DNA of 64,000 nt from the NCBI RefSeq assembly GCF_900141735.1, contig NZ_FQYO01000001.1, positions 682,001 through 746,000 on the forward strand, written 5' to 3'. The notes beneath the pieces are model-generated. The model did not search any database and was not told the DNA's origin. It worked only from the letters and a program-made list of their open reading frames with translations. Source of the stretch: Wenxinia saemankumensis (GTDB taxonomy: Bacteria > Pseudomonadota > Alphaproteobacteria > Rhodobacterales > Rhodobacteraceae). Shown here piece by piece: positions 57,114 through 64,000 of the stretch; within the stretch, counting starts at the first letter, position 1, and each line of letters opens with the position of its first letter. Made by a program: the position numbers and the translations under genes.

Positions 57114-58106
57114 ATGACCAAGACCCTTCTGGCCGCACTGGCCACGACGACCGCGCTCGCGGCGACCCCGTCCCTCGCCCAGGACCAGGACCGCACCGGC
57201 TGGCCGGAGAGCTTCACGGTCGGCACCGCCAGCCAGGGCGGCACCTTCTTCGTCTACGGCTCGGGCTGGGCGAACCTCGTCGCCGAGGAACTGGGCATCT
57301 CGGGCGGCGCCGAAGTGACCGGCGGCCCGATGCAGAACATGGCGCTGGTGCATACCGGCGACGCCGCCTTCGGCATGACCACGATGGGCCCGGCCGCGGA
57401 ATCACTGGCGGGCAACAACCCGATCGCCCCGGGCCTCGCGATGGACAATGCCTGCGCCATCTTCCCGATGTACCAGACGCCGTTCAGCGTGACGGCCCTG
57501 TCATCCTCGGGCATCACCTCGATCGCCGACATCCCGGCCGGCTCGCGGATCGGCTTCGGTCCCGCCGGGTCCACCTCGGACACGTATTTCCCGGCGATGA
57601 TGGACGAGCTCGGCGTCGAGTACGAGCGGCGCAACGGCGGCTGGGACGATCTCGGCGGCCAGCTGCAGGACGGCCTGCTCGACGTGGTGGCCTTCGCGGT
57701 CGGCATTCCGGTCCCGGCGGTCAGCCAGCTCGAGGTGCAGACGGACGTGAACATCATCGAGTTCACCGAGGAGGAGCAGGCGCAGATCATCGACGCCTTC
57801 CCGGTCTCCGCCTTCGAGATCCCGGCCGAGACCTACACCACGCTCGAGGCGCCGGCCCGGTCGGTCGCGATGTGGAACTTCGCCATCGCCGACTGCTCGC
57901 TGCCCGACAGCTTCATCAACGCCGTGGTCGACGTGGTGATGTCCGACAACGAGCGGATGGTGGGCATCCACCAGGCCGCCACCGAGACGGTGGTGGAGAA
58001 CTGGGACAAGAACACCGTCCTGCCCTGGCATCCGGGCGCGGCCGCCTGGTTCGAGGAGAATGCCGGCGCCGACATCGCCGACGACATGATCTACAGCGCG
58101 AACTGA
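57114..58106 (+). CDS. TAXI-family TRAP transporter solute-binding subunit
   Basis: A 330-residue periplasmic receptor. The signal peptide (residues 1-22, TPSLA before QDQ) is followed by the TAXI motif FTVGTASQGGTFFVYGSGWANLV (cited as VGTASQGGTFFVYGSG). Later FGPAGSTSDTYFPAMM and VAFAVGIPVPAV line the ligand pocket; PAETYTTLEAPA is also typical. It pairs with the fused TRAP permease 144 bases downstream. TAXI ligands are mostly unknown, often C4 or C5 acids such as glutamate or 2-oxoglutarate. A GGAGG site precedes the ATG. Confidence 0.92.
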   Translation: MTKTLLAALATTTALAATPSLAQDQDRTGWPESFTVGTASQGGTFFVYGSGWANLVAEELGISGGAEVTGGPMQNMALVHTGDAAFGMTTMGPAAESLAGNNPIAPGLAMDNACAIFPMYQTPFSVTALSSSGITSIADIPAGSRIGFGPAGSTSDTYFPAMMDELGVEYERRNGGWDDLGGQLQDGLLDVVAFAVGIPVPAVSQLEVQTDVNIIEFTEEEQAQIIDAFPVSAFEIPAETYTTLEAPARSVAMWNFAIADCSLPDSFINAVVDVVMSDNERMVGIHQAATETVVENWDKNTVLPWHPGAAAWFEENAGADIADDMIYSAN

Positions 58107-58250
58107 TCCCGCGCCGCGATCCCCCCGCGCCCCCCTCCGGGGCGCGGGACCGGGCCACGGACCCACAACCGTTCGACCCGCTGACCGGCGGCCCCAGACG
58201 GCCGTCCGGTCCCCACCCCACCCCCCGCATGCTGACAGAGGGCCGCGCCG

Positions 58251-60521
58251 ATGAGCCATGCCGACACCCGTGACGATCCCGCCGCCGCCGCGGCCGCCCC
58301 GCAGGACGTGACCATCGCCGACGGCGTCGACGACGAGGCGATCGAGAGCAACCGCCGGATCTTCGGCGGCTGGCGGTTCTGGTTCATCAGCGGCTTCGCG
58401 GCGATCTACGCGGCGTTCCACATGGCGGCCCTCAACGGTCTGTCGATCGAGCGCTGGACGGGGATCGAGCTGCCGCTCCTGCCGAGCTTCCCGATGGAGA
58501 CCTGGAACTTCCGCATCGTGCACATCGCGGGCGCGCTGCTGCTGGGCTTCCTGCTCTTCGCATCCGCGCCCTTCGCGGAAGGCGAGGCGCGGGACCGGCC
58601 CGTGCGCCGGCCGCTCGGCCTCGTCGCCACCGCGCTGATGCTGCCGGCGCTGTTCTCGCTCGGCGTCACGATCTGGTTCGCGATCCAGATCTCGAACGGG
58701 CTGATGTGGAACGGCATCGACGAGACGCTGCGCTTCCGCGAGATCTGGCTCTTCGGCGTGCCGCTGATGGTGGCGACGGTGGGGGGCATCCTGCTGTCCT
58801 GGGCGCACAGCGCCCCGCGCGCATCGTTCGCGCCGACGGACATCCTGCTCGGCCTCTGCGGGGTCGCCGTCGCCTCCTACCTGATCGTGATCTACGGCAC
58901 GCTCATGCGCAATTCGACCGGCACCCCCTTCGCGCCGATCGGCATCTCCATCGCCGCGGTGGCGGGTACGCTCCTGATCATGGAGCTGACGCGCCGTGTC
59001 GCGGGCCTCGCGCTCGTCATCATCTCGGTGGTGTTCCTCGCCTACGTCTTCACCGGGCAGTACCTGCCGGGCTTCCTGCAATCGCCCGCGATCAGCTGGG
59101 AGCGATTCTTCAGCCAGGTCTACACGGATGCGGGCATCCTGGGGCCGACCACGGCGGTCTCCTCGACCTACATCATCCTCTTCATCATCTTCGCCGCGTT
59201 CCTGCAGGCGTCGAAGGTCGGGGACTACTTCGTCAATTTCGCCTTCGCCATGGCGGGCCGCTCGCGCGGGGGGCCGGCCAAGGTCGCGATCTTCGCCTCG
59301 GGCCTGATGGGCATGATCAACGGCACCTCGGCGGGCAACGTGGTGGCGACCGGCTCGCTCACCATCCCGCTGATGAAGAAGGTCGGCTATCACAAGAAGA
59401 CCGCGGGCGCGGTCGAGGCCGCCGCCTCCACCGGCGGGCAGATCATGCCGCCGATCATGGGCGCCGGCGCCTTCATCATGGCCGAGATCACGGGCATCCC
59501 CTACACGGACATCGCCATCGCGGCGATCATCCCGGCGGTGCTCTACTTCGTGTCGGTCTTCTTCATGGTCGATTTCGAGGCGGCCAAGCTGGGCATGCGC
59601 GGCATGCGCAGCGACGAGCTGCCGAAATTCGCGGCCATGGTGCGGCGGGTCTACCTGTTCCTGCCGATCGTGATCCTGATCGTCGCGCTGTTCATGGGAT
59701 ATTCGGTGATCCGGGCGGGAACGCTGGCGACCCTGTCGGCGGCGGTCGTGAGCTGGCTCACGCCCTACCGGATGGGGCCGCGCAGCGTGTCCAAGGCGTT
59801 CGAGCTGGCGGGGATCATGTCGATCCAGATCATCGCCGTCTGCGCCTGCGCCGGCATCATCGTCGGCGTCATCTCCCTGACCGGGGTCGGGGCGCGGTTC
59901 TCGAACCTCCTGCTGGGTCTCGCCGGGGTGTCGCAGCTTCTCGCGCTGTTCTTCGCCATGTGCATCGCGATCCTGCTGGGGATGGGGATGCCGACGACGG
60001 CCGCCTACGCGGTCGCGGCCTCGGTCGTGGCGCCGGGCCTCGTCGACCTGGGGATTCCGCAGCTGACGGCGCATTTCTTCGTCTTCTACTTCGCCGTGCT
60101 CTCGGCGATCACGCCGCCGGTCGCGCTCGCCTCCTACGCGGCGGCGGGGATCTCGGGCGCGAACCCGATGGAGACGTCGACGGCATCGTTCAAGATCGGG
60201 ATCGCCGCCTTCATCGTGCCGTTCATGTTCTTCTACAACTCGGCGATCCTGATGGACGGCACCTGGGTGGAGATCCTGCGGGCCGGGGTCACGGCGACGG
60301 TCGGGGTCTTCTTCCTCTCCGCCGGGGTGCAGGGGTGGTTCCTGGGCAGCCGGGCGGCCTGGTTCGTGCGGGCCGGCCTGCTGGCGGCCGCGCTCTTCAT
60401 GATCGAGGGCGGGCTGGTCACCGACCTGCTGGGCGTCGGGCTCGCCGTGGCGGTCTACCTCGTGCAGCGGGTGTTCCGCCCCGATCCGGGCGCGCCGCTG
60501 GTGGTGAAAGGCGCGGACTGA
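58251..60521 (+). CDS. TRAP transporter permease, fused 4TM-12TM
   Basis: A 756-residue fused permease that serves TAXI receptors, driving uptake by an ion gradient. The N-terminal quarter holds four to five helices of the small (DctQ-like) part, the rest the large (DctM-like) part. Family stretches are NGTSAGNVVATGSLTIPLMKKVGY (cited as GTSAGNVVATGS), EAAASTGGQIMPPIMGAGAFIMAE (cited as STGGQIMPPIMGAGAF) and LLGMGMPTTAAYAVAA near residue 578. It is followed by a good terminator. Confidence 0.94.
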   Translation: MSHADTRDDPAAAAAAPQDVTIADGVDDEAIESNRRIFGGWRFWFISGFAAIYAAFHMAALNGLSIERWTGIELPLLPSFPMETWNFRIVHIAGALLLGFLLFASAPFAEGEARDRPVRRPLGLVATALMLPALFSLGVTIWFAIQISNGLMWNGIDETLRFREIWLFGVPLMVATVGGILLSWAHSAPRASFAPTDILLGLCGVAVASYLIVIYGTLMRNSTGTPFAPIGISIAAVAGTLLIMELTRRVAGLALVIISVVFLAYVFTGQYLPGFLQSPAISWERFFSQVYTDAGILGPTTAVSSTYIILFIIFAAFLQASKVGDYFVNFAFAMAGRSRGGPAKVAIFASGLMGMINGTSAGNVVATGSLTIPLMKKVGYHKKTAGAVEAAASTGGQIMPPIMGAGAFIMAEITGIPYTDIAIAAIIPAVLYFVSVFFMVDFEAAKLGMRGMRSDELPKFAAMVRRVYLFLPIVILIVALFMGYSVIRAGTLATLSAAVVSWLTPYRMGPRSVSKAFELAGIMSIQIIAVCACAGIIVGVISLTGVGARFSNLLLGLAGVSQLLALFFAMCIAILLGMGMPTTAAYAVAASVVAPGLVDLGIPQLTAHFFVFYFAVLSAITPPVALASYAAAGISGANPMETSTASFKIGIAAFIVPFMFFYNSAILMDGTWVEILRAGVTATVGVFFLSAGVQGWFLGSRAAWFVRAGLLAAALFMIEGGLVTDLLGVGLAVAVYLVQRVFRPDPGAPLVVKGAD

Positions 60522-60600: not shown

Positions 60601-60918
60601 TCAGAGGCAGTGCGAGGTCGCGACGACCGGGATCAGGGTCCAGGCCGTGGCGACGAGCGCGACCGAGGCGAGGGTCAGGCTGATCGTGCGGATGGTGCCG
60701 GGCGGTCCGCCCCAGCGGGGACCGCGCAGGGCCAGCACCAGCCCCGCCTGCACGGCGAGCGCGGCCAGCGCCGCCGCGATCAGCAGCGCCCGGCCGGTCC
60801 CGTCGCCGAAGGCCCCCGCGAACCGGCTGGAGCAGAGCAGGCCGTGCAGCCCGTAGACCGCGCAGAACGCGGCGAGCCAGATCGTGATCGGCCAGGTGAG
60901 GCGGTGGATGTCGCTCAT
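60601..60918 (-). CDS. Small membrane protein linked to the heme-copper oxidase
   Basis: A 105-residue protein with three hydrophobic segments (about residues 10-27, 44-65 and 78-100). No named family is recognised. The start overlaps the stop of the oxidase subunit I+III gene (ATGA-type, 60915-60918), so it belongs to the oxidase operon. It may be a small structural or assembly subunit, in the position where subunit-IV-like proteins occur. Confidence 0.65.
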   Translation of the reverse strand: MSDIHRLTWPITIWLAAFCAVYGLHGLLCSSRFAGAFGDGTGRALLIAAALAALAVQAGLVLALRGPRWGGPPGTIRTISLTLASVALVATAWTLIPVVATSHCL

Positions 60919-63428
60919 CCCAGCACCCCCGGCGCGGCGGTCACGGCAAGGCCGATCAGCGTGACGAGGGCCGCGTAGCCGGCCCAGAGGTCGAGGATCC
61001 GCCCCTCGCCGCCGATCCGCGCCGAGACGATCCCCGCCCGCCGCCGCGCGAAGAGCGCCCCGGCCATCAGCGCCGCCACGCTCAGATGGAACAGCGCGTA
61101 GCCCGTCAGCACCCAGAGCGTCGCGTCGTAGGCATGCGCGGTCGGATCAGGCGCGTGCCGCAGCATCAGCAGACAGGCGAGGGCCAGCGCGACCAGCCCT
61201 GCCAGCGTGACGACGGCCCCCGCCCCGCCCCGCGTCAGCCGCCCGGCCCCGACCAGCGCCGCCCCACCCAGCGCGGCGAGGGCGACGCCCGCCCCCGGTT
61301 CGGCCCAGGCGGGCGGCGGCCAGTTCGGCGCGATGGTGAAGAGGAAGGCGTAACCGAAGAGCAGCGAGCCGAAGAGGGTGCCGTCCGCCAGCAGCAGGAA
61401 GAGCGAGCCCCACCAGCCCGGCGGATCCGGCACCTCGGACGCGGTCGGCAGGGAGAGGCCCTGCCCGGCGGGCAGCGCGCCCTCCTCCCGCCGGGCGCCC
61501 AGCGCGCGCACCCAGTTCAGCGCGAAGCCCGCCACGCCGAGCGCGGCCAGCGGCACCAGCCAGTAGGCCTTGACCAGCAGGCCGAGGAAGAACAGCCCCG
61601 TCACCGCCGCCATCGCCATCGGCATGGCGGTGTTGCCGGGATAGACGACGATGTAGGCCGGCCGTCCCGTCGAGATGTCGAGGCTCAGCGTCTCGCGCCG
61701 ACCGCGCACGGGATCGCCGAGATAGCCCTCGCCCCGCGCGATGCGGGCCGGCAGTTCGGGATCGTCGTAAAGCGGATCGCGCGAGGTCACGACCGGCAGC
61801 GACGCGAAGTTGTAGGCCGCCGCCGGGGTCGGCATCGCCCATTCCAGCGTCCCCGCCCCCCAGGGGTTGCGCGAGCCGCGGACCGAGACGACCGCGTTCA
61901 CGACGATGTCGACGAGGACCAGCGCGAAGCCGATCGCCATGACGAAGCTGCTGACCGAGGCGAGGATGTTGATCGCCTCCCATCCCTGGCCGCTCTCGTA
62001 GGTGTCGATGCGCCGCCGCATCCCCAGCAGGCCCGCCCAGTGCAGCAGGAGGAACGTTCCGTGAAAGCCCGCGAAGACCAGCCAGAAGGCGGTCGGCCCG
62101 ATCTTGAAGTAGCTCTTGCGCCCGATGAAATGCGGCATCCAGTAGTAGAGCGCGCCGAGCATCGGGAAGACGAAGCCGCCGATCAGCACGTAATGCAGAT
62201 GCGCCACGATGAAGTAGGTGTCGTGGACCTGCCAGTCGAAGGGCACGACGGCGACCATCACCCCGGTCAGCCCGCCGATGACGAAGGTCGCGAAGAAGCC
62301 GAGGATCCAGAGCATCGGCAGGTGCAGTTCGGGCCTGCCGCGCCACATCGTCCCGATCCAGGCGAAGATCTGCACCGCCGTCGGCACGGCCACCAGCGTC
62401 GAGGCGGCCGAGAAGAAGGCCAGCCCCATATGCGGGATGCCGGTGGTGAACATGTGGTGCACCCAGAGCCCGAAGCTCAGCACGCCGAGCGACACCGCCG
62501 CCGCCACGATCCAGCCGTAGCCCATGAGCCGCGTGCGGGCCATGACGGGGATGATGGTCGAGATGGCGCCGGCGGCGGGCAGGAAGATGATGTAGACCTC
62601 CGGATGGCCGAACAGCCAGAACAGGTGCTGCCAGAGCAGCGCATCCCCGCCATCCGCCACCTGGAAGAAGGGCAGGCCGAAGGCGCGCTCGAGCTCCAGC
62701 AGGATCGAGCCGAGGATCAGCGGCGGAAAGCCCGTCAGGATCATCACCGCCGTCACCAGCGCGTACCAGGCGAAGATCGGCATCTGGCTGAGCCTCATGC
62801 CCGGCGCGCGGTAGCGCAGGATCGTCACCGTGATCTCGACCGCCGCCGCGATGGCGCTGATCTCGACGAAGGTGATGCCGATCAGCCAGAAATCCGAATT
62901 GATGCCGGGGCTGCCCAGCGTGGAGGACAGGGGCGGATACATGAACCAGCCGCTGTCCGGCGCGATCCCCGCCAGCATCGAGAAGATCAGCATCGAGCCG
63001 CCGAAGACGTAGCACCAGAAGCCGTAGGCGGTGAGGCGCGGAAAGGCGAGGTCGCGCGTGCCCAGCAGCTTGGGCAGCAGATAGACCGCGAACCCCTCGA
63101 AGAGCGGGATCGCGAAGAGGAACATCATCAATGTCCCGTGCATCGTGAAGAGCTGGTTGTAGACGTCCGGCCCCACGAAGGCCGAGCGGGGCGAGGCCAG
63201 CTGCGCGCGGATCAGCATGGCGAGGATGCCGCCCACGACGAAGAAGAACACCGCCACGGACAGGAACATCCGCCCCAGATCGGTGTGGTTGACGGTGGTG
63301 AACCAGCCCTTCCAGCCGGGATCCGAGGCCCAGATCCGGGTGAGCGCGCGGTGACGGCGCAGGGCGGTCATCGGCGCGGCGTCGGTCGAGGGGGCGGTCG
63401 AGGGGGCGCTTTCGCCGGGGACGGTCAT
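60915..63428 (-). CDS. Heme-copper oxidase subunit I + III fusion
   Basis: An 837-residue fused catalytic subunit. Subunit I (residues about 30-560) keeps all metal ligands: MHGTLMM (low-spin heme His), GHPEVYIIFLP (Cu-B His and cross-linked Tyr, plus the A1-type Glu), LWVHHMFTTG (Cu-B His pair) and VAHLHYVL (heme ligands). The K-channel lysine position is Gln353 in VPTAVQIFAW. Subunit III (about 620-837) has GWWGSLFLLLADGTLFGSLLFGYAF (cited as PPGWWGSLFLLLADG). It is coupled by ATGA to subunit II. Whether the donor is cytochrome c or quinol is open, given subunit II. Confidence 0.93.
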   Translation of the reverse strand: MTVPGESAPSTAPSTDAAPMTALRRHRALTRIWASDPGWKGWFTTVNHTDLGRMFLSVAVFFFVVGGILAMLIRAQLASPRSAFVGPDVYNQLFTMHGTLMMFLFAIPLFEGFAVYLLPKLLGTRDLAFPRLTAYGFWCYVFGGSMLIFSMLAGIAPDSGWFMYPPLSSTLGSPGINSDFWLIGITFVEISAIAAAVEITVTILRYRAPGMRLSQMPIFAWYALVTAVMILTGFPPLILGSILLELERAFGLPFFQVADGGDALLWQHLFWLFGHPEVYIIFLPAAGAISTIIPVMARTRLMGYGWIVAAAVSLGVLSFGLWVHHMFTTGIPHMGLAFFSAASTLVAVPTAVQIFAWIGTMWRGRPELHLPMLWILGFFATFVIGGLTGVMVAVVPFDWQVHDTYFIVAHLHYVLIGGFVFPMLGALYYWMPHFIGRKSYFKIGPTAFWLVFAGFHGTFLLLHWAGLLGMRRRIDTYESGQGWEAINILASVSSFVMAIGFALVLVDIVVNAVVSVRGSRNPWGAGTLEWAMPTPAAAYNFASLPVVTSRDPLYDDPELPARIARGEGYLGDPVRGRRETLSLDISTGRPAYIVVYPGNTAMPMAMAAVTGLFFLGLLVKAYWLVPLAALGVAGFALNWVRALGARREEGALPAGQGLSLPTASEVPDPPGWWGSLFLLLADGTLFGSLLFGYAFLFTIAPNWPPPAWAEPGAGVALAALGGAALVGAGRLTRGGAGAVVTLAGLVALALACLLMLRHAPDPTAHAYDATLWVLTGYALFHLSVAALMAGALFARRRAGIVSARIGGEGRILDLWAGYAALVTLIGLAVTAAPGVLG

Positions 63429-64000
63429 GGCAGGTCCCCTGCGAGGAAGGCGGCCCAGTCCTCGGGCGCGTGGGCGATCACGGTGAAGCGGTGCCCGGCA
63501 TAGCCGGGGCCGTTGTATTCCGAGCCGAGGCCCGCGAATTCCCCCGGCCCGTCCGTCTCGATCCGCAGCACGTTGACGTGGCCGGGCACGGCGTCGAGCT
63601 TGCCCGCGAGCCGGGGCACCCAGAAGCTGTGGACGACGTCGGTCGTCGTGATCTCGACATCGACGGGGGTGGCGGCGGGGATGTGCAGGACGTTCTCGGT
63701 CGCGCGCCCCTCGGCGTCCGGGTAGCCGAAGCGCCAGATCCACTGGCTCGCCTCGGCGCGGACCGTCACAACGTCCGGCCCGGGACGGGGAAGCAGCCGC
63801 TCGCCCAGGACCAGCGCGTAGGCCAGCAGCGCGGCGAGCACGGTCAACGGGAAGGCGAGGCCGAGCCCGATCACGAAGCGGCGCTCGTCGCCCGTCCCCG
63901 CCGGGCGGCGCCAGGCCAGCGCGATCAGCGCCATCACGAATCCGAAGATCAGGGTGGCGCCGACCAGCAGCACCCACCACAATCGCGAGATCGCCGCGGC
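63425..64000 (-). CDS. Heme-copper oxidase subunit II lacking most Cu-A ligands (5' partial)
   Basis: Two membrane helices and a cupredoxin domain; the frame stays open to the window edge, so the N-terminus is missing. From the TTG at 63982, ASQWIWRFGYPD (residues 78-89) and VVHSFWVPRLAGKLDAVPGH match subunit II, with His118 at the first Cu-A ligand. The second ligand loop reads GLGSEYNGPGYAGH: both cysteines, the second histidine and the methionine are replaced (Gly153, Asn157, Tyr161, His164). This resembles CyoA of quinol oxidases (Ser/Asn/Gly-rich loop). The gene is the upstream partner of the subunit I+III fusion. Confidence 0.88.
   Translation of the reverse strand, partial: AAAISRLWWVLLVGATLIFGFVMALIALAWRRPAGTGDERRFVIGLGLAFPLTVLAALLAYALVLGERLLPRPGPDVVTVRAEASQWIWRFGYPDAEGRATENVLHIPAATPVDVEITTTDVVHSFWVPRLAGKLDAVPGHVNVLRIETDGPGEFAGLGSEYNGPGYAGHRFTVIAHAPEDWAAFLAGDLP

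Follow-up and report, generated by a model that had tools for sequence, protein, structure and literature searches.

The window analysed here, 64,000 nucleotides of the Wenxinia saemankumensis genome, ends in a cluster of heme-copper oxidase genes on the minus strand (Table 1). The start of the fused COX1-COX3 gene and the stop of the subunit II gene overlap (ATGA). The fusion scored above the cut-off of TIGR02891 (695.1 bits against 670.75). Subunit II fell short of that of TIGR02866 CoxB (133.1 bits against 147.7), as did the genome's own Cu-A-bearing caa3 subunit II (140.4 bits). For the small protein that closes the cluster (60601-60918), no family scored above its own cut-off; both of its cysteines are also kept in 9/9 Cu-A-bearing relatives compared. 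Past the window end the cluster continues in locus L010 with a DUF2231 membrane protein, encoded on the opposite strand, and with CopD/HemJ-like and Caa3_CtaG proteins. The DUF2231 protein (L010 6101-6616, with its relatives) was modelled with four helices; His 35, 38 and 108 are invariant and His 155 nearly so, and it may have a heme or copper role. As a known heme protein it was dropped, the best match in a PDB fold search (E 0.12) not being significant.

Table 1. Features of the oxidase cluster at the end of the window
Feature	Position	Strand	Basis or remark
Subunit II (COX2) without Cu-A	63425..64000	-	Pfam COX2 2.1e-13; two transmembrane helices and a cupredoxin domain
First Cu-A His of subunit II, kept	63629..63631	-	His in 114/114 Cu-A-less loci among the matches listed
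Former Cu-A loop of subunit II, GSEYNGPGYAGH	63491..63526	-	Cys1 to Gly, Cys2 to Asn, His2 to Tyr, Met to His; Glu kept
Glu between the former Cu-A cysteines, kept	63520-63518	-	Loop alignment
Fused subunits I and III (COX1-COX3), 837 codons	60915..63428	-	Pfam COX1 4.4e-145
K-channel position of subunit I, Gln	62370..62372	-	Subunit I alignment
Arg 470 of P0002 (subunit I, GMRRR)	62016..62018	-	Pro in most Cu-A-bearing relatives
Small membrane protein, 105 aa, last gene of the cluster	60601..60918	-	Conserved Cys 29 and Cys 104

A preliminary description of this DNA had started the subunit II reading frame at a TTG (63982), but the true protein is longer by ~30 residues: the coding for a conserved lipoprotein signal (LAGC, LSxVxPAGPAA) runs on past the window end, and the 5' end lies ~80-110 bases beyond it. 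Between the divergent DUF2231 start and this signal (L010 6040-6110), neither genome of the genus has an in-frame ATG, GTG or TTG; judging from the sequence, a start at CTG is possible.

Translation of the minus strand from 63526 to 63491 gives GSEYNGPGYAGH, in which both cysteines, the second histidine and the methionine of Cu-A are absent. The preliminary description had claimed that the centre was lost here, with only its first histidine and the Glu between the cysteines remaining. Alignment with Cu-A-bearing relatives (reference loop C-SEF-C-GTG-H-TV-M in L018) bore out both points, with all four ligands replaced. The subunit II of a congeneric genome (G050) is 76% identical and has the loop LSAEYNGPGYVQH, with the same four ligands replaced; the loop of Wenxinia marina (L115) is identical to that of G050, and its COX2 genes are found at corresponding places, so that G050 is almost certainly this species. 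A sequencing or assembly error, which the preliminary description had itself named as a way for the claim to fail, has a negligible probability: nothing was found in its favour, the loss is the same in the congener, and both cysteines are absent in 114 of the 118 loci among the matches listed in the scan described below. The loop of the genome's own CyoA (RNSQYNGPGFATQ) resembles that of the Cu-A-less subunit II, and we read this likeness as convergence. Gene conversion from CyoA was considered as the source of the loop and dropped, since neither the rest of the domain nor COX1 resembles CyoAB and loops of this kind arose in other lineages too. Against the CyoA and QoxA models subunit II scored 66.9 and 68.7, below the cut-offs of 266.2 and 240.95. 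The genome (3.57 Mb) has five COX1-family genes, which we read as an aa3, a caa3 with fused cytochrome c, the Cu-A-less enzyme, a bo3-like CyoAB and a cbb3, the last (L005) by size and gene order only.

For a scan of public genome contigs we used a pattern in which FW-P-L-GK-D-PG is fixed and the second cysteine position is barred to Cys; it gave at least 118 loci. Four of the 118 matches listed are not Cu-A-less: L069, L071 and L080 have a register-shifting insertion with Cu-A intact, and L140 has lost one cysteine. The last (L140 4128-4500, CAEFRGTQHAHM) carries a single Cys-to-Arg change in subunit II and is possibly a pseudogene, an error or an early stage of loss. In the 114 Cu-A-less loci among the matches listed, the first Cu-A histidine (H151) and the Glu (E188) are each present in 114. 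At the other four ligand positions of the same 114, Cys1 is replaced by Ser 82, Gly 19, Thr 7, Asn 4 and Asp 2; Cys2 by Ser 75, Asn 38 and Ala 1; His2 by Tyr 112 and Phe 1, with one His retained; and Met by His 72, Phe 26, Asp 5, Leu 3, Arg 2 and Asn 1, with five Met retained. The pattern bars all T-initial codons at Cys2 and so biases that column; it leaves the first His, Cys1 and Glu unconstrained. By title, 111 of these 114 listed loci belong to Alphaproteobacteria (including Rhodobacterales 76 and Hyphomicrobiales 26), the remainder being two Halomonadaceae and one Bosea title that the tool left unplaced. A CxxCH motif follows the cupredoxin domain in 2/114, both Halomonadaceae.

An earlier family-level pattern, which required Tyr-Asn and the final Gly-His, matched 1/149 genomes, the window only, and is too narrow to give a frequency. 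Searching the class with subunit II found 21/385 genomes at 1e-30; one is the query's own, and the other 20 have the four Cu-A loop ligands. The phylum search found 31/398 genomes and 33 places. Three places had no locus and are excluded from the reading of Cu-A; among the 29 with a locus besides the genome's own, Cu-A is present in 27 and absent from L165 and L166. Scoring of all COX2 rows gave 53 with Cu-A, 133 without both cysteines and 1 partial, counts that include repeat copies from the window's own genome, CyoA rows, and L071 and L080, which are mis-scored through their insertion.

The genes around the Cu-A-less oxidase are well conserved. Where at least 2.3 kb upstream was available (75 of the 114 loci among the matches listed), CopD and DUF2231 were found in 75/75 and CtaG in 65/75; where 3 kb downstream was available (69 of the 114), COX1 and COX3 were found in 69/69 and the small protein in 58/69. 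Gene order is identical in seven annotated plasmid records with a Cu-A-less member; in an eighth, from Microvirga lotononidis, the region carries no annotation. Ten Cu-A-bearing relatives read at length have COX1 and COX3 in 10/10, CopD in 9, CtaG in 8, a like small protein in 9 and DUF2231 in 6; the last count comes from a simple gene caller, and blast found DUF2231 in all 24 rows of L018-L026 and L167-L182 (without L175). Because Cu-A-bearing relatives share these neighbours, the cluster predates the loss of Cu-A and no addition to it is seen, and we rejected the cluster as a replacement for the centre.

The preliminary description expected annotation as cytochrome c oxidase by similarity. 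In the seven annotated records, subunit I is called cytochrome c oxidase subunit I in six (cbb3-type subunit I in the other), and subunit II 'cytochrome B' in six and 'hypothetical protein' in one. The electron donor is thus mis-assigned or unstated in the records opened. As a label of the Cu-A-less state, 'cytochrome B' was rejected: the Cu-A-bearing L249 bears the same name.

We placed the enzyme in a COX1 tree of 85 rows, with the main clade thinned at 86% identity and L071 relabelled. All 33 rows of the main Cu-A-less clade fall together (support 100/100), nested among Cu-A-bearing rows. The enzyme sits among Cu-A-bearing oxidases with the same gene cluster and apart from CyoB, which is represented by two rows from the window's own genus where long branches meet; QoxB is absent from the tree. 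Phylogeny had been proposed as a check on a quinol-oxidase identity, and the grouping with CyoB that would go with it did not appear. The tree needs six state changes, at CyoB, the main clade, L154 (Bradyrhizobiaceae), L109 (Devosia), and L107 and L153 (Halomonadaceae). Joining L154 to the main clade was not rejected (p-AU 0.118), so L154 may not be an independent loss; joining L154 and L109 was rejected (p-AU 0.017). The Halomonadaceae rows are placed elsewhere, behind starred branches. Because of these two reservations, over L154 and the starred branches, we claim at least three losses of Cu-A, with a fourth probable. In each case Cu-A-bearing rows surround the Cu-A-less ones, which suggests the direction from Cu-A-bearing to Cu-A-less, though the tree does not prove it. 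That the oxidase is Cu-A-less by secondary loss we hold to be almost certain.

Devosia equisanguinis L109 (4484-5152) has Asn for both cysteines and retains the second His and Met. Halomonas dongshanensis L107 (3179-3961) and Vreelandella olivaria L153 (811-1572) have a subunit II without Cu-A (SAEFSGVGYAHM) and keep a fused CxxCH domain; Cu-A-bearing kin are very near them in COX1. In Paracoccus alcaliphilus L248 (6004-6681) subunit II again lacks Cu-A (loop TSAEFSGIGYAGM), and its COX1 groups with the Cu-A-bearing L168 and L169 (SH-aLRT 99 in a quick tree of 62 rows), which makes a further independent loss likely. The other three of the four further plasmid records (L247, L249, L250) have Cu-A. 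Roseomonas marmotae L223 (7983-8657) keeps both cysteines and both histidines but has His where Met would stand, and in a quick tree its COX1 lies beside the main Cu-A-less clade (SH-aLRT 81); it possibly represents a first step of loss in which Met goes first.

The preliminary description had noted that cupredoxin domains can persist without Cu-A, and the structural comparison agrees. The subunit II model has a normal subunit II fold (pLDDT 86.9), and the structures in the PDB that match it best come from subunit II of cytochrome c oxidases as well as of quinol oxidases: Thermus caa3 (2yev_B) is best by sequence and by fold, followed by those of bo3 and aa3. Between the window and G050, pN/pS is 0.37 for COX2 (0.34 for the cupredoxin part), 0.12 for COX1 and 0.49 for the COX3 part. 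At a COX1 identity of 70-75%, cupredoxin identity is 70% for Cu-A-less pairs (801) and 53% for Cu-A-bearing pairs (61). This comparison omits the four loop-ligand columns; about eleven residues of the Cu-A-less set are fixed by the scan pattern and the pairs are non-independent, so all that we take from it is that no decay of the empty domain is seen. Judged by these rates, the copper-free domain is under purifying selection, and decay of subunit II is not supported.

These data also bear on whether the complex still reduces O2 in respiration or has become a decaying, regulatory or NO-reducing form. The faster change of COX2 than of COX1 between congeners would fit such a fate, as would the second copy in the genome with Cu-A and cytochrome c. 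Against this, the cluster is conserved, the copper-free domain is no less conserved than that of Cu-A-bearing relatives (subject to the selection bias of the scan), and all the catalytic residues tested are invariant: in the main Cu-A-less clade the ligands of heme a, heme a3 and CuB and the active-site Tyr288 are present in 102/102 rows, or in 99/99 where fewer rows reach. The replacements of the active-site Tyr or of the CuB histidine set expected of an NO reductase are not found, HPEVY and HH being intact. We consider a non-respiratory fate improbable and, from these residues, that the complex is very probably still an oxygen reductase.

In the main clade the D-pathway Asp132 and Glu286 are each present in 102/102 rows and Asn139 is replaced by Thr, Ser or Gly. 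The K-channel position, which we take to be Lys362 in the numbering of R. sphaeroides aa3, is Gln in 94 and Met in 7 of 101 rows. Since the same position is Gln in 23/23 and 18/18 rows of Cu-A-bearing groups, the absence of the lysine is a trait of the wider clade. Loss of the K-channel elsewhere in family A has already been published, as far as the portion of PMC8239418 consulted goes.

We also looked for changes specific to the clade, defined as one residue in 90% of the clade and at most 15% of the sisters; fourteen subunit I positions pass. P0002 470, which presumably adjoins the pair of arginines at the heme propionates, had too little coverage for this test: it is Arg in 95/95 main-clade rows, and Pro 8, Val 1 and Ala 1 in ten sister rows. 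Twenty Cu-A-bearing relatives that were read (L215 was not readable) have Pro 19, Ala 1 and no Arg; L223 has Pro, and three further Cu-A-bearing plasmid records have Pro, Thr and Pro. Arg is also found in the Cu-A-less L154, but L107, L109, L153 and L248, likewise without Cu-A, have Pro, and R470 was dropped as a general mark of Cu-A loss. A Leu-to-Trp change in COX1 (W463), found in L107, L153 and L154, was similarly dropped, since 6/11 Cu-A-bearing relatives share it, including all 3 of family code f201 (L224, L225, L231).

Cu-A is the textbook point of electron entry in cytochrome c oxidase, and the usual account of the origin of quinol oxidases is its loss in CyoA and QoxA. The preliminary description favoured a quinol donor accordingly, citing residues in subunit I as partial matches to a quinol site. 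The loss of Cu-A and the retained subunit II fold stand, but these hints in subunit I are not supported. The RAQ Arg and Gln (P0002 73 and 75) and the YNQ Gln (91) are invariant in the main clade (102/102), and equally fixed in the Cu-A-bearing sisters (23/23) and the caa3 group (19/19), and therefore do not speak for quinol. The observation that the CyoB His98 equivalent is missing from the window's protein also holds for most rows of the clade. At the quinol-site residues of CyoB, which we take to be Arg71, Asp75, His98 and Gln101, the Cu-A-less clade has mostly Val/Ile, then Leu, then His in 13/102 rows (mostly Ile/Val in the rest) and finally Gln in 102/102. The two CyoB rows of the window's own genus have R, E, H, and Q or E at the four positions. 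The absence of Arg71 and Asp75 and the rarity of His98 argue against a quinol site of the known type, and in this the Cu-A-less rows are no different from their sisters.

The enzyme can be set against three known systems. With CyoABCD bo3 and QoxABCD aa3-600 it shares membership of family A, a subunit II cupredoxin without Cu-A and like loop replacements; it differs in keeping the first Cu-A His and the Glu, in its COX1-COX3 fusion, in having neither the K-channel Lys nor the quinol residues Arg71 and Asp75 and, for CyoB, in its separate position in the COX1 tree. The Cu-A-bearing COX1-3 fusion oxidases of Proteobacteria (the 24 rows named above, with CtaG, CopD-like and DUF2231 neighbours) share the cluster, the K-channel Gln and the fusion, whereas they have intact Cu-A ligands and, in the rows read, no Arg at P0002 470. 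The caa3-type enzymes (the genome's own copy, L003/L007, and Thermus caa3, 2yev) have the same fusion, but they have Cu-A, and the own copy carries a cytochrome c at its C-terminus; within its 16-kb stretch the own copy showed no DUF2231 or CopD match.

Our best explanation is a functional family A heme-copper oxygen reductase that has lost Cu-A secondarily and is fed by ubiquinol, a combined reading to which the sequences give about an even chance. Electrons would pass straight to low-spin heme a on the outer side of the membrane; ubiquinol would supply them, at a place other than the known site of cytochrome bo3 and aa3-600. The cupredoxin domain would stay as a structural cap holding a Glu-His-Asp metal/water site, and protons would be taken up via the D pathway, since the K-pathway Lys is absent. 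Ubiquinol is the donor that we rank likeliest, and taken alone it is roughly as probable as all other outcomes together. To our knowledge, the Cu-A-less family A oxidases with an established donor (CyoA, QoxA) are all quinol oxidases, which favours quinol here, as do the similar loop replacements (Ser or Asn for Cys2, Tyr or Phe for His2) and the lack of CxxCH after the domain in 112/114 loci among the matches listed. Weighing against it, no electron-delivering gene is seen to have been added to the cluster, and the neighbouring genes are the same in Cu-A-bearing relatives. Nor does losing Cu-A have to imply quinol, given that the two Halomonadaceae enzymes without Cu-A keep a fused heme-c domain.

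A further argument for quinol comes from R. sphaeroides, whose QoxBA is called a quinol oxidase in the part of PMC3152904 consulted and probably belongs to the Cu-A-less family. The same part reports, citing Mouncey 2000, that deletion of either Qox or Qxt leaves aerobic growth unaffected, and that a bc1 mutant grows aerobically at half speed (its doubling time is doubled). Because loss of bc1 does no more than this in the account given there, some quinol oxidase, Qox or Qxt, works in R. sphaeroides. The name 'quinol oxidase' for QoxBA may itself rest on sequence. Its assignment to the family is by elimination in Cereibacter johrii and C. changlensis. C. johrii has five COX1-family genes, which we read from size, order and partner as aa3, caa3, the Cu-A-less family, cbb3 and NorB-like. 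Its PF00116 matches are the aa3, the caa3, the Cu-A-less family and one with a nitrous oxide reductase-like loop, and the only Cu-A-less subunit II found is of the same family as that of the window. Bradyrhizobium coxWXYZ, a bb3-type ubiquinol oxidase (PMC4036050, PMC4274787), was set aside as a member by description, being called a Cyo homologue in PMC4274787.

Electrons could alternatively bypass Cu-A, with a membrane-bound or tethered c-type cytochrome docking on the cupredoxin domain and passing them straight to heme a; transfer from heme c to heme b operates in cbb3 oxidases and cNOR. The two Halomonadaceae enzymes, with a fused CxxCH domain and no Cu-A, are what such a bypass would look like, and the missing CyoB-type quinol site and the dehydrogenase with a c-type cytochrome that adjoins Cu-A-less and Cu-A-bearing clusters alike also suit it. 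However, the 112/114 listed loci without a following CxxCH do not, no c-type cytochrome is named among the six genes of the cluster in the seven Cu-A-less records that carry annotation, and the Halomonadaceae copies, so close to Cu-A-bearing kin, might be inactive. We regard the bypass as possible and rather unlikely.

Another metal could serve as the entry point, held in a mononuclear site by the invariant first His, the invariant Glu and a His that replaces Met. Both residues are present throughout the 114 listed loci, 72 of which have His at the Met position, and R. marmotae L223 already has this His with both cysteines still in place. At the Met position, however, 26 of the 114 have Phe and another 16 have Asp, Met, Leu, Arg or Asn, which leaves no constant ligand set. 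The Glu, moreover, has another explanation: we take it to be a ligand of the Mg/Mn site, whose partners in subunit I, His 401 and Asp 402, are invariant (99/99) and may account for its retention in the Cu-A-less loop. A substitute metal centre is therefore a poor prospect.

Beyond the ubiquinol reading of the window's enzyme, we entertain a broader and more tentative proposal, to which we lean less than to ubiquinol: that several of the losses are unlike those of CyoA and QoxA, and that the copper-free cupredoxin, with its first His and Glu kept (in the main clade together with the Arg at the heme propionates), may form a new entry port that takes electrons directly from a c-type cytochrome, or else from quinol at a site yet to be described. 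The Halomonadaceae form would in that case be a natural 'caa3 minus Cu-A', with electrons running from its tethered heme c to heme a. The family is a large alphaproteobacterial clade with its own loss of Cu-A and a conserved empty domain, in which the K-channel Lys is missing and only one of the four known quinol residues is left. Together with its close Cu-A-bearing sisters it offers a natural experiment on the role of Cu-A, on other routes to heme a and on how often donors are switched. A literature search with subscription journals mostly outside its coverage found no description of this clade, and in the part of PMC6431628 consulted bo3 alone is named as having lost Cu-A.

Some neighbouring genes hint at an electron source. 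A GMC oxidoreductase, a gluconate-dehydrogenase subunit 3 family protein and a c-type cytochrome adjoin the cluster in two Cu-A-less Sulfitobacter records, and the same genes adjoin it, in line, in the Cu-A-bearing Shinella sp. HZN7. The loci with such gluconate-dehydrogenase-like genes and a c-type cytochrome beside the cluster are L250 (577-9469), L164 and L221; a six-frame count of c-type cytochromes in the flanks was too noisy to use. As the same genes adjoin both forms, the same source may serve Cu-A-less and Cu-A-bearing enzymes, which fits either donor. In the window itself, the genes that follow downstream of the oxidase cluster (57114-60521) look by eye like a TAXI-type TRAP solute receptor and its permease, and annotated TAXI/TRAP genes likewise adjoin the oxidase cluster of Falsirhodobacter algicola (L249).
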